In this document: one piece after another, positions 9,159-17,149 of the stretch
How positions within the stretch are numbered: the first letter of the stretch is position 1
Layout of the letters: each line of letters begins with the position of its first letter
From: a virus
DNA length: 21,537 bases
IMG/VR virus record: IMGVR_UViG_3300032665_000225
Span: 1-21,537 of that record
Reading direction: 5' to 3' (one strand)
Program-made: the position numbers and the translations under genes
The notes under the pieces: model-generated
Database searches by the model: none
Told to the model about the DNA's origin: nothing
The model's input: the letters and a program-made list of their open reading frames with translations, nothing else

Positions 9159-9197
9159 AAATTATGAGTATATAGTTATAAATTGGTACCTAAGCCT

Positions 9198-9206
9198 ACT
9201 AATGCA
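9198..9206 (-). promoter_or_regulatory. Late promoter-like box TGCATTAGT, copy 3
   Basis: Minus-strand TGCATTAGT with TAGGGCGGAA ending exactly 13 bases upstream (9220-9229, overlapping the terminase TAG stop). The portal ATG lies 39 bases downstream. Confidence 0.65.
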
Positions 9207-9226
9207 AATTATTAGTTTCTTCCGCC

Positions 9227-10666
9227 CTACATCGCATACGGATTTTCAAATCGTTTGGATCGATCATCTGCGTACGAATAATCACGTGCTGGTAATGGAT
9301 CTAACTGAATCCAACCTGAGTCACGCAATACACGTAGCGCTTGTGATAAAGAATCCACATAGTCATCATGACCGCCTGCTTCTGGGAATGAACATACTTG
9401 GCGCAAGAATCGTTTTGCCCAGTCTGCATATTCGCCAGGTCGTTCAGGATCTTCTGGAATAAATATTTTGCCTTTTGCAATTAGTGGTGCTACAATATTA
9501 AGACGCTGAACTTTATCAGCACGACCTGGGTTGTATCCACGAACTTCGATACCTGAACCTTGGAGCTCTTGAATAAGGGAGATACCTGCTGACTTATCTT
9601 CCATCAATACGAGATCGGCTTTTCTTCCTTTTCCGAAATCGTTATCAGCTCCATAGACAACTTCTTTGAAGTCATCGATGACTTTGCGTCGAAGTTCTGG
9701 ATAAGCTAGGTGTCCGTCCCAAGCGTCAAGCAATATGACAGAGGTGCCTGCGTCTTCTCTTTCAAACACGCCCCATATTGTACACGCTGTTGGGTCGTTC
9801 ATTGTTTTTTCAGATGTTGCTGGATCATATGACGCAATTACATATTCTAAGTTAGGTGATGGTTTATTTGCAGGCCATAATCTAAATTGCTTACGTTTGA
9901 TAATACCTGCTTGTTCAGGATCTAGGATCTCACCATAGATTTCTTGACGACCGATGTCTGTGCCATCGTATGTCTCTAACTGTTTGAAGAAGGTTTCAGA
10001 TAAGTGTTGTTTGTTATCGTATGATGATGCGTTGACCACATACACATCGCCACCAACCTTGCCTTCGTTTAAGTCAACGATCAGTTCTTTTGGTTTTGGT
10101 GTTGTGGTAATGATCTGTTGAACACGAGGAATTCTTGGATCTTTAAGACGGAGCGTAAACTGAACGCCGTCGTATGCGTCATCTAAATACTCAAATGCAC
10201 ACAACTCGTCAAACCACGCACCATGGAATTGTTTACCACGATAACGTTCTGGTTCTGAACCAGGGATACCTTGGATCAATGACCCATTGGTTAAGGTAAT
10301 CTCAAATAATGATTTGTTGTAGTCTTTGATTAAAGAAGCTGGTATAATATTGAGGAGGCCAGAGTCACCTTCAAAACATGTTGCACGAATATCGTTTGAG
10401 GTTGGTGCTGTGACTAACCAGCGAGTGTTGTTATATTTCCACGCACGGATGCCGATCCAGTGAGAGGCTGTGTGAGTCTTTCCTGATCCCCGTCCTGCTA
10501 ACATAAGGAAGGTATCAAACTCGCCGTCTTCTGGTTCGCGTTGATGAGGGAGTGCTTGAAGCGCCCACTTGACTTGCCACAATGCAGCATCAAGTTGCTG
10601 CTTTGGCCAGTGCTTATGAGTTTCTGCAAACTTCTTCAGTATGGCTTCTTGTTTGTCTGTTAACAT
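9227..10666 (-). CDS. terL: Terminase large subunit (packaging ATPase and nuclease)
   Basis: A 479-residue protein that pumps DNA into the prohead and cuts it. The ATPase is clear: Walker A GRGSGKT at residues 58-64 and Walker B FHGAWFDE at 147-154. The C-terminal nuclease shows three acidic motifs of the RNase H-like fold: ASYDPAT, LMEDKSAG and HDDYVDS. I start it at ATG 10666 because GGAGAAGGA lies about 11 bases upstream; a GTG 22 codons further up is open but only overlaps the previous gene. The start overlaps the stop of the intein-like gene by seven bases, so the two are translationally coupled. The Walker A loop, the usual site for terminase inteins, is uninterrupted. No small terminase subunit is recognisable in the window. 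Confidence 0.92.
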   Translation of the reverse strand: MLTDKQEAILKKFAETHKHWPKQQLDAALWQVKWALQALPHQREPEDGEFDTFLMLAGRGSGKTHTASHWIGIRAWKYNNTRWLVTAPTSNDIRATCFEGDSGLLNIIPASLIKDYNKSLFEITLTNGSLIQGIPGSEPERYRGKQFHGAWFDELCAFEYLDDAYDGVQFTLRLKDPRIPRVQQIITTTPKPKELIVDLNEGKVGGDVYVVNASSYDNKQHLSETFFKQLETYDGTDIGRQEIYGEILDPEQAGIIKRKQFRLWPANKPSPNLEYVIASYDPATSEKTMNDPTACTIWGVFEREDAGTSVILLDAWDGHLAYPELRRKVIDDFKEVVYGADNDFGKGRKADLVLMEDKSAGISLIQELQGSGIEVRGYNPGRADKVQRLNIVAPLIAKGKIFIPEDPERPGEYADWAKRFLRQVCSFPEAGGHDDYVDSLSQALRVLRDSGWIQLDPLPARDYSYADDRSKRFENPYAM

Positions 10667-11652
10667 GTCTGTATAAATCCTTCTCCAACAAGGATTGAGT
10701 TGTCTGGTCCGTTTGTTTCTATATGAACACACATTTGGGATTGTGTAGGTTCAATGGCTTTAATGTATCTTCTACTTGGATACACTTTAATAGGTGGAGA
10801 CTTTTGGATATCCATAATTTTAATCCTAAACTTAAAATACAATGTGTATGTATTTCGAGCTGGATTAAATAGAATGGATGTCTTTGAGCCTAACGATTCA
10901 ACTAAACTTTGAATCTGCACCACAACATTTAAATTTCTAGATGAGAATCTAAACCTGTCATTTCTTTTTTCATATTGCGCTGACTTAGCATGCATGATGC
11001 CAGTCAATAATTCAATGCGTTCTTCTACAGATGCAAACAAATAATTTGTAGGTAATCTGCTTGGTATATTCGGAGCCAATTGTAAATGAATAGCTGGCTC
11101 TGTTATAAATACGCGTTTGCCGTTTTTTCTTTTTGGTCCTTCTATAATTTTGTATCCACAGCTTCTAAACTTTTCATAAATGAAATCTTGGTAGCCTGGG
11201 ATTGTGACCATCTGATGTTTTTTGTTTTTGTTATAGAGCCAATAACCAAACACAAAAGGTGGTATGCTTAATACCTGATGAGGAAACGCTATGGGTTTCG
11301 TCGTAGGTATTGAATACTTAGTGCGACCTCTTCTATCTTTCAATGACAGATCGATTAAGTTTTCCAATTTAGTAAACTTCAACTGTCGTTTAAATGGCCT
11401 GATGTTTTTATAAGCATCTAGTTGCTTTCGATGATTTCTATCTTGGATTAAGAATCCTAGATGTTTATCTCCACGAATAGTGAGATGGTCATCAAAAGTC
11501 ACTTCATAACATTCATTGGCATAATAATGCTGGACGAGTTTAACTTGGACAATCTCGCCGTCCTTGTTAAAAACATAATCGCCAATCTTTACTTTGTCTG
11601 CTCTTTTCCAATAGTCAAGTGTTAGCACTTGTTGGATTGCTGTTATTGCCAT
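10660..11652 (-). CDS. Intein-derived (Hint/LAGLIDADG) protein with decayed active sites
   Basis: A 330-residue stand-alone protein laid out like an intein. Residues 9-67 resemble Hint blocks A and B (ADKVKIGDYVFNKDG; CYEVTFDDH ... GDKHLGF). Residues 131-255 look like a two-motif LAGLIDADG domain. The last 24 residues resemble blocks F and G (CVHIETNGPDNSILVGEGFI). The chemistry looks lost: it begins with Met rather than a nucleophile Cys/Ser; the block B TxxH reads GDKH; the LAGLIDADG motifs read FVFGYWLYNKNK and LLTGIMHAKSAQ, without the catalytic acids; the end is FIQTC then stop, without His-Asn. So splicing and DNA cutting are both unlikely. It is coupled to the terminase start by a seven-base overlap. 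A domesticated role in packaging or regulation is possible; a dead relic is the alternative, though the open frame argues against simple decay. Confidence 0.72.
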   Translation of the reverse strand: MAITAIQQVLTLDYWKRADKVKIGDYVFNKDGEIVQVKLVQHYYANECYEVTFDDHLTIRGDKHLGFLIQDRNHRKQLDAYKNIRPFKRQLKFTKLENLIDLSLKDRRGRTKYSIPTTKPIAFPHQVLSIPPFVFGYWLYNKNKKHQMVTIPGYQDFIYEKFRSCGYKIIEGPKRKNGKRVFITEPAIHLQLAPNIPSRLPTNYLFASVEERIELLTGIMHAKSAQYEKRNDRFRFSSRNLNVVVQIQSLVESLGSKTSILFNPARNTYTLYFKFRIKIMDIQKSPPIKVYPSRRYIKAIEPTQSQMCVHIETNGPDNSILVGEGFIQTC

Positions 11653-11676: not shown

Positions 11677-11705
11677 AAAAAAGAAGGGACGTTTTAAGCC
11701 CCTTC
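11677..11705 (-). terminator. Second intrinsic terminator downstream of pqqA
   Basis: On the minus strand GAAGGG (11700-11705) pairs with CCCTTC (11683-11688) and is followed by six T (11677-11682). It backs up the terminator at 11710-11731 and lies only 25 bases before the start of the intein-like gene. Confidence 0.65.
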
Positions 11706-11709
11706 CAAA

Positions 11710-11731
11710 AAACACTGGGGAGGTAGTGTTT
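11710..11731 (-). terminator. Intrinsic terminator directly after pqqA
   Basis: Minus-strand stem AAACACT (11725-11731) with AGTGTTT (11710-11716), eight-base loop, followed by a T run. It overlaps the pqqA stop codon, so the peptide gene forms its own short transcript. Confidence 0.7.
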
Positions 11732-11801
11732 ATTTATTCATCACGTACATTGTTACTTCAAAACCAAAACGCATTTCAGTAGCTGCTGGTTTAGTCCACA
11801 T
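11730..11801 (-). CDS. pqqA: PqqA, precursor peptide of pyrroloquinoline quinone
   Basis: A 23-codon gene (ATG 11801-11799, TAA 11732-11730) with AAAGGAAA eight bases before the start. The peptide begins [12 protein letters not shown] and continues [11 protein letters not shown], which is the PqqA pattern over its whole length: the MW(T/K)KP opening, R-x-G-x-E, and the E-x3-Y pair (E15, Y19). In the known pathway PqqE crosslinks this Glu and Tyr and PqqB, C, D and proteases finish PQQ, the cofactor of methanol and other quinoprotein dehydrogenases. No other pqq gene is in the window, so the host enzymes would process it. The gene has its own upstream promoters and tandem terminators. In a phage it would be an auxiliary metabolic gene that raises PQQ supply during infection. 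Chance is very unlikely given residue-by-residue agreement. Confidence 0.92.
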
Positions 11802-11831
11802 AATATTTTCCTTTGCATAGTAAAAATTGAT

Positions 11832-11864: not shown

Positions 11865-11892
11865 ATTATATACAAACCACTTTGTATGGAAA
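11865..11892 (-). promoter_or_regulatory. Possible host-type promoter of pqqA
   Basis: On the minus strand TTTCCA (11887-11892), 16-base spacer, perfect TATAAT (11865-11870), about 64 bases before the pqqA ATG. This would allow early expression by the host sigma factor. It overlaps a nine-base-pair inverted repeat (TTTGTATGG 11881-11889, CCATACAAA 11908-11916), which may be an operator or an RNA stem. Confidence 0.45.
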
Positions 11893-11919
11893 AAATAGCT
11901 AAATATCCCATACAAACTC

Positions 11920-11928
11920 ACTAATGCA
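11920..11928 (-). promoter_or_regulatory. Late promoter-like box TGCATTAGT, copy 4 (pqqA)
   Basis: Minus-strand TGCATTAGT, 118 bases before the pqqA ATG, without the TAGGGCGGAA partner. The transcript would begin with the inverted repeat at 11881-11916. Confidence 0.6.
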
Positions 11929-11977
11929 AGGAAAACTTTTATTTGGATACGGATTTCCATGAATCCAAGGTAAGTAT

Positions 11978-11986
11978 ACTAATGCA
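11978..11986 (-). promoter_or_regulatory. Late promoter-like box TGCATTAGT, copy 5
   Basis: Minus-strand TGCATTAGT with a relaxed partner TAGGTAGGAA 12 bases upstream. It lies 50 bases behind copy 4 in the same direction, giving a tandem pair in front of pqqA and, beyond the terminators, the terminase genes. Confidence 0.6.
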
Positions 11987-12064
11987 AATTTTAACTATTT
12001 CCTACCTATTATTTTTACATATAATTAAATCAATGACTTACAGATTTAGATTAAACCAAAGTAT

Positions 12065-12288
12065 TAAAAAAGACATAGAAGACACAGAAGACAGGGTACG
12101 GTTTTTGTTGTTTTTTTGCAACATTAATTTTTTAACCCATTGATTTAATTAATAATATTTTTCTAAAAGACACAGAAGACACAGAAGACACCCTTTATTC
12201 CATATTTTTATTATTTTTAAAAAATAAAAAATAAAAGATAGAGACAAACTGTGTTTATACTGTGTCTTCTATGTCTTCTATGTCTTTT
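12065..12288 (-). repeat. Left copy of the inverted ~230-bp duplicated leader element
   Basis: Read on the minus strand it contains, in order: a purine-rich segment (12288-12260, AAAAGACATAGAAGACATAG...), an AT-rich spacer, a pyrimidine segment (12193-12165, GGGTGTCTTCTGTGTCTTCT...), a second spacer and a second pyrimidine segment (12100-12065). The same order with diverged spacers recurs on the plus strand at 21261-21492. Segment 1 can pair with segment 2 (about 25 base pairs, two G-U) or with segment 3 (about 24, one G-U), but not both. TATACT (12295-12300) and an overlapping TATAAT lie just upstream, so a transcript would start at segment 1. It may be a leader RNA for leftward transcription. 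Confidence 0.7.
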
Positions 12289-12607
12289 GTGTATAGTATA
12301 TTATACATTTATTTGACCGGTTAATTATCATAAGTATTTGATTCATATAGAAAATGTCCAGATTTTTTAAAAAAAAATTTTTAGAAATCGACTTTTTTTA
12401 AAAATACGGCAAATTATAAAAACTTGCTATCTGTGGGGCCCCCGCCGCCCCCCTCAGGTAGGGGACCCAAATTGGGGTATCGCTACAAAGTTAATACCCC
12501 TACAGCAAGAAGGGTTATTTGTTTCCCTACTCTAGCAAGGCCGCCAGCGCGCCAATGCGCCACAACGCCAGCGCGCCAACGGATACAATGACGCGCCGGC
12601 GCGCTAG

Positions 12608-12684
12608 CTAATAACCCTACTGTCATTGTGGTTATTAGGCTGCGGCTGCGTTCCAAATAACCACAATGACAGTAGGGTTATTAG
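12608..12684. repeat. Perfect 29-bp inverted repeat
   Basis: Arms 12608-12636 and 12656-12684 are exact reverse complements with a 19-base loop. Each arm is itself a partial palindrome (AATAACC ... GGTTATT). It could extrude as a cruciform or bind a protein dimer. Confidence 0.8.
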
Positions 12685-17042: not shown

Positions 17043-17112
17043 ATAAATAGATAGGTTAGTCCTTGAATATGGCAAGAACAAGATTGTCGACATCCTGTCC
17101 CTATCTATTTAT
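17043..17112 (-). promoter_or_regulatory. Long 5' hairpin of the HNH transcript
   Basis: ATAAATAGATAGG (17043-17055) and CCTATCTATTTAT (17100-17112) are perfect 13-base inverted repeats around a 44-base loop. The second arm abuts the promoter-like box at 17113, so a transcript would start with the stem. It may limit translation or stabilise the mRNA. Confidence 0.6.
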
Positions 17113-17121
17113 ACTAATGCA
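17113..17121 (-). promoter_or_regulatory. Late promoter-like box TGCATTAGT, copy 6
   Basis: Minus-strand TGCATTAGT preceded by AT-rich sequence, 94 bases before the HNH start at 17019; it lies back to back with the host-type promoter at 17150. Confidence 0.6.
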
Positions 17122-17149
17122 TAATTTAACACAAAAATTACCAAATTAA

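Follow-up and report, generated by a model that had tools for sequence, protein, structure and literature searches.

Phages of methylotrophic bacteria carry pqqA, a 23-codon gene for the precursor peptide of the cofactor PQQ. One such gene had been predicted from sequence in a viral DNA stretch of 21,537 nucleotides (nt), here called the window (the whole of IMG/VR record IMGVR_UViG_3300032665_000225); we confirm the phage-borne pqqA, and the interpretation that accompanied it, in which extra precursor peptide sustains methanol oxidation during infection, is supported overall. We consider it probable that such genes were captured from Methylophilaceae hosts, have been kept as expression units, and supply peptide for host PQQ synthesis and methanol oxidation.

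The window encodes a PqqA peptide

The original prediction described a 23-codon frame on the minus strand; its coordinates proved exact, with AAAGGAAAATATT ahead of the ATG and with Glu15 and Tyr19, the Glu-x3-Tyr pair that becomes PQQ, in place. Its reading as PqqA was borne out by highly significant matches over the full models and above the curated cut-offs, with 42.4 bits against Pfam PqqA (PF08042; E 6.4e-11, cut-off 21.1, all 19 model positions covered) and 40.4 bits against the NCBIfam equivalog TIGR02107 (cut-off 20). A six-frame search found this frame to be the sole PqqA in the 21.5-kb virus record. It is not a chance frame, because the peptide is kept in unrelated phages through synonymous changes. 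The pqqA region contains the following features.

9227–10732, minus strand: gene for the terminase large subunit (TerL), neighbour of pqqA; profile matches
10660–11652, minus strand: conserved open reading frame (ORF) ahead of TerL, weakly Hint/intein-like; profile matches and relatives
11682–11706, minus strand: terminator-like hairpin and T tract after pqqA, GGAAGGGGCTTAAAACGTCCCTTCT TTTTT; kept in relatives
11730–11801, minus strand: pqqA, 23 codons; PF08042 and TIGR02107 matches, kept in relatives
11807–11814, minus strand: ribosome-binding site AAAGGAAA, 5 nt from the ATG of pqqA; read from the sequence
11865–11892, minus strand: sigma-70-like promoter TTTCCA-16-TATAAT; a weak consensus match (6 found against 5.0 expected in the region)
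11919–11928, minus strand: second phage box, TGCATTAGTG, apparently close to where the pqqA box would place the −10
11947–11963, minus strand: host-type pqqA box TTCATGGAAATCCGTAT, some 160 nt ahead of the ATG; 10.0 bits with the host-trained matrix
11971–11988, minus strand (also 9191–9208 and 17106–17123): phage-specific box TTTGCATTAGTATACTTA, also ahead of other minus-strand late genes; 3 matches against 0.07 expected

The surrounding DNA is that of a phage: genes for the large terminase, a portal, a major head protein and a GroES-like protein lie downstream of pqqA on the same strand, and the portal has relatives in Caulobacter phage RW, roseophage CRP-901 and pelagiphage HTVC027P. pqqA had been placed between phage promoter-like boxes and a terminase operon. 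This description holds for the TTTGCATTAGTATACTTA boxes ahead of the gene and for the large terminase downstream, but the intervening ORF is no demonstrated small terminase. All or nearly all of 78 relatives keep that ORF, which matched no small terminase in profile searches; a weak Hom_end_hint match, and PHROG matches to terminase and helicase-loader profiles that look intein-bearing, suggest that its product is a Hint/intein-like protein. Boxes of the form TGCATTAGT occur at positions 1596, 6087, 9197, 11919, 11977 and 17112, on the minus strand only and each preceding minus-strand genes, and may serve as late promoters in this phage family. Elsewhere in the window, AGACACAGAAGACA is present in direct and inverted copies (12059–12290), possibly as replication-origin iterons, and tandem repeats of the 8-nt unit CGCCAGCG (12542–12684) adjoin a 32-nt inverted repeat that is 97% complementary. 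Rfam gave no match in the window or in three other pqqA-bearing loci (L004, L310 and L036).

pqqA is widespread in methylophages

We searched 50,697 phage records by tblastn and found pqqA in all nine cultured methylophage records: Venkman, the freshwater Methylophilaceae phage P19250A, MEP301, MEP401, MEP402 and four Melnitz isolates. Outside the methylophages, the matches were one uncultured podovirus and two records labelled as Acinetobacter phages. The one of these two that we opened (Acinetobacter phage MD-2021a, CAKLQF020000010.1; L009) has the appearance of a bacterial chromosome contig and contains pqqABCDE. Repeating the search with a divergent PqqA as query gave the same phage records, and in a whole-record search seven of the named-phage records passed the Pfam PqqA cut-off. 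The gene had been expected to go unnoticed on account of its size, and in the cultured phage records inspected it is indeed either unannotated or overlapped by a gene call on the opposite strand. The publications on Venkman, MEP301, MEP401/402 and Melnitz say nothing of it.

Uncultured viruses extend this picture. Scanning IMG/VR with a DNA pattern for GFEVTMY gave at least 120 contigs, and all 120 listed encode PqqA; a second pattern, which fixes the first 12 codons only, also gave at least 120 contigs, with GFE[VI]T[ML]Y kept in every one of those read. Grouped by shared proteins, the loci form about 13 groups at two shared ORFs, a rough count because the loci are partial. Linkage to pqqBCDE, a common trait of pqqA although these hosts regularly have orphan copies, is absent from the viruses: pqqB, C, D and E were found at 0 of 159 viral pqqA loci as compared with 27 of 120 host loci. 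Nor is co-carriage of methanol dehydrogenase the rule, as a PQQ alcohol dehydrogenase was present in only 1 of 30 pqqA-bearing phage records tested. One 72-kb pqqA-bearing record (L052, G512) encodes a PQQ-dependent alcohol (methanol) dehydrogenase at 34049–35731.

A few viral contigs (L027, L033, L013, L022 and L034) encode PqqA of a non-Methylophilaceae type, a hint that their phages may infect a different PQQ-using host; the capsid of some is distantly related to that of the window lineage. Among the genomes matching the divergent viral PqqA types, 2 of 12 carry AMO/PmoA-family genes.

Hosts and origin of the viral genes

All 120 sampled Methylophilaceae genomes contain pqqA, in 1–12 copies each, and all 120 have a PqqE match, which exceeds the cut-off in 117; mostly there is one pqqE. 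These figures agree with published counts of 3–12 pqqA genes and one pqqBCDE set. In a bacterial genome collection the peptide signature was found almost only in Methylophilaceae or unresolved relatives. This restriction supports the host proposed for the window, a PQQ-dependent methylotroph, as does the fact that the cultured, host-assigned phages with matches are all methylophages. Viral and host genes are close, with a median best identity of 92%, and the pqqA of one relative of the window (L315) is identical over 66 bases to a copy of Candidatus Methylopumilus. The commonest viral peptides are also the commonest host peptides.

Viral pqqA is under purifying selection

Across 156 distinct viral coding sequences, Trp2, Pro5, Arg11, Gly13, Phe14, Glu15, Thr17 and Tyr19 are invariant while their codons vary (for Tyr, TAC in 83 and TAT in 73). 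The anticipated constancy of Glu15 and Tyr19 therefore extends to all these copies, including matches from the pattern that makes no use of that part of the peptide. For the 156 copies dN/dS was 0.094. Because the search patterns bias part of this set, the nine distinct sequences found through TerL alone provide a cleaner test of selection, and these gave 0.085. In the following respects viral pqqA is as expected for a viral auxiliary metabolic gene: it is under selection (dN/dS 0.085–0.094), it is carried by cultured phages, and it has a homologue in a host pathway in every one of the 120 host genomes.

Close relatives of the window were predicted to share the frame, and they have it at the same place, about 1.07 kb before the TerL start. 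In the TerL tree, pqqA marks one clade of 14 rows (support 98/91); it also occurs in one neighbouring row, which itself stands next to a row lacking pqqA, and is absent from 45 rows. Searching the long records of eight pqqA-less relatives revealed no PqqA anywhere, and most of the pqqA-less relatives inspected have another, apparently coding, sequence at the pqqA place. In distant relatives, whose capsid proteins are 35–45% identical, pqqA directly follows the major capsid gene in the same orientation, and 45–263 nt separate the two (19 loci). These differing positions indicate more than one gain or move of pqqA inside a single wide family.

Many viral copies have a host-type box and terminator

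We built a box matrix from host Methylophilaceae pqqA promoters only. Its consensus, CTMATGAWWTTCATTAG, is a near-palindrome, which we take to resemble a Fur-type operator, and in hosts a second half-site, TTCATGA, usually follows about 23 nt after it. The box is almost specific to pqqA: 142 of 171 host copies have it at 12 bits or more, with 11 other sites in 988 kb. A strict tandem-repeat pattern, run on 13 whole host genomes, proved too narrow; of its four matches, three lie upstream of pqqA by their coordinates and one before katG.

The same matrix found the box ahead of 61 of 167 viral pqqA copies at 12 bits or more (182-fold enrichment over the remaining viral DNA) and ahead of 81 of 167 at 10 bits or more (83-fold). 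At a lower threshold it matched 94 of 159 viral upstream regions, compared with 1.3% of shuffles. Box sites precede pqqA in Venkman, P19250A, MEP301 and Melnitz, and about half of the viral copies, MEP401/402 among these, have no recognisable host box. The window, at 10.0 bits, has the upstream box of the host pqqA regulatory unit, and its relatives score 8.8–17.3 bits. Further parts of that unit are present as well. An SD-like sequence lies upstream of pqqA in all 176 viral copies checked, and a terminator-like hairpin follows the gene in 73 of 156 copies from viruses and 133 of 163 from hosts, as against 48 of 942 other viral ORF ends; after about half of the viral copies no terminator is recognisable. 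It follows that the phages carry a pqqA expression unit of the host type, to which the window lineage has added phage elements.

Unrelated phages (L004, L036, L046, L310 and L238) have in common a hairpin downstream of pqqA, GGTGAATAGCGTTC...GGTATTTACC, with compensatory changes and without an Rfam match, as if it had been swapped along with the gene. The box shared by phages and hosts is new here and offers a first handle on pqqA regulation in Methylophilaceae.

A model for phage-encoded PqqA

We propose that phages took up pqqA from their Methylophilaceae hosts, which are methylotrophs of the OM43/LD28 kind living in fresh and marine waters, and that selection keeps it as a small self-contained unit of host-type box, ribosome site, 23-codon peptide and, often, terminator. 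In the infected cell, the phage copy would be transcribed and its peptide taken as substrate by host PqqE and PqqD, which would form the Glu-Tyr crosslink before PqqB and PqqC act. Phage replication would multiply pqqA, so that the peptide gene alone could keep up or increase the PQQ available to methanol dehydrogenase, and the resulting supply of energy and carbon would benefit the phage.

The stoichiometry of the pathway fits this model: one PqqA gives one PQQ, which makes the peptide a stoichiometric input, whereas the enzymes are catalytic. In Methylovorus, PqqA availability was reported to be rate-determining (Ge 2015, as cited in PMC11317620). Together with the 1–12 pqqA genes and mostly single pqqE of the hosts, this report makes a PQQ boost for methanol oxidation the likely role. 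Against it, the hosts already have pqqA, so the phage would gain only in dose; a recognisable host box is missing from about half of the viral copies, as is a terminator; and pqqA was reported to be dispensable in Methylobacterium extorquens AM1, a strain with orphan copies (Toyama 1998, as cited in PMC11317620).

Other readings are less likely. According to one, the box on many phage genome copies would soak up a host regulator and shift the expression of host pqqA and other targets, with the peptide secondary. The occurrence of the box in phages of several groups, almost exclusively at pqqA, would suit such titration; the strong purifying selection on the peptide itself, the SD-like site ahead of every viral copy checked and the half of viral copies that lack a recognisable box all make it improbable. 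We give similarly little weight to the idea that phage-driven PQQ serves lanthanide or iron handling and not as the cofactor of methanol dehydrogenase. The presumed likeness of the box to a Fur-type operator and the single host site before katG are compatible with it. PQQ also binds lanthanides, and the orphan pqqA copies of M. extorquens respond to lanthanide solubility (PMC11317620); however, we saw no metal uptake gene beside phage pqqA, and the central enzyme of the hosts requires the PQQ cofactor anyway. Excess phage PqqA could instead occupy PqqD and PqqE as a decoy and lower host PQQ, since surplus substrate without its own enzymes could in principle compete, but this is very unlikely: one would expect a blocking peptide to have lost its Glu or Tyr, whereas both reacting residues are kept and the commonest viral peptides match those of the hosts. 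That viral pqqA is a passenger, through bacterial contamination, a transduction leftover or a functionless attachment-site copy of the host gene, is the least credible reading despite the closeness of viral and host copies (some identical over 66 nt), given that cultured isolates, the fixed position across a diverged TerL clade, strong selection and the absence of pqqBCDE lead us to reject contamination and an attachment site, and that positions differ between families.

Peptide supply to the host pathway is therefore the reading that we prefer, and the presence of pqqA in all nine cultured methylophage records, with a host-type switch on about half of the phage copies, suggests that the methanol machinery of the host is kept supplied during infection. 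We see about an even chance that a broader statement holds, namely that pqqA is near-universal in Methylophilaceae phages and was acquired many times with the host operator because stoichiometric PqqA, and no enzyme, is limiting for methanol oxidation in infected cells. If so, cofactor-precursor peptides would form a class of auxiliary genes that went unnoticed since gene callers skip short frames.

In coastal and fresh waters, Methylophilaceae play an important part in the degradation of one-carbon compounds. If phage pqqA sustains methanol oxidation, these viruses have a direct effect on the turnover of such compounds, and pqqA is a simple marker for linking phage contigs to methylotroph hosts. 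With cultured phage–host pairs at hand, the idea can be tested now.

Relation to known systems

Viral pqqA is closest to the pqqA of the Methylophilaceae hosts themselves (PF08042 / TIGR02107). The commonest peptide forms coincide, both have the E-x3-Y pair and the upstream box, and the orphan state with a terminator is that of many host copies. Unlike the host genes, viral copies sit among phage genes on phage genomes, and the window lineage adds phage-specific boxes and has a single-copy box where hosts usually have the second TTCATGA.

Cyanophages carry the photosystem genes psbA and psbD. As in that case, a host-derived gene for a central energy step is found here in unrelated phages of one host group. 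Phage pqqA differs in supplying a ribosomal cofactor precursor and no enzyme or protein subunit, and in its length, which falls below what usual annotation detects. The case shows that the precursor peptide of a cofactor can be the product of an auxiliary metabolic gene, and that short frames of this kind require a dedicated search.

PqqA in a methylotroph phage was named earlier, in a Lake Baikal study (Coutinho 2020, PMC7678222), so the kind of gene is already known; a 2026 reservoir study counted pqqA, pqqE and pqqD among viral phosphorus genes. The Lake Baikal virus population VP_266 is, like the phages described here, assigned to Methylophilaceae hosts, in its case by prediction, and that study took its PqqA for an auxiliary metabolic gene that serves methanol oxidation (PMC7678222). 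In contrast to that single T4-like contig, which also encodes methanol dehydrogenase and for which no regulatory unit was described, we find pqqA to be general in methylophages of several lineages and present in every cultured methylophage record found, and we identify why it had been overlooked.
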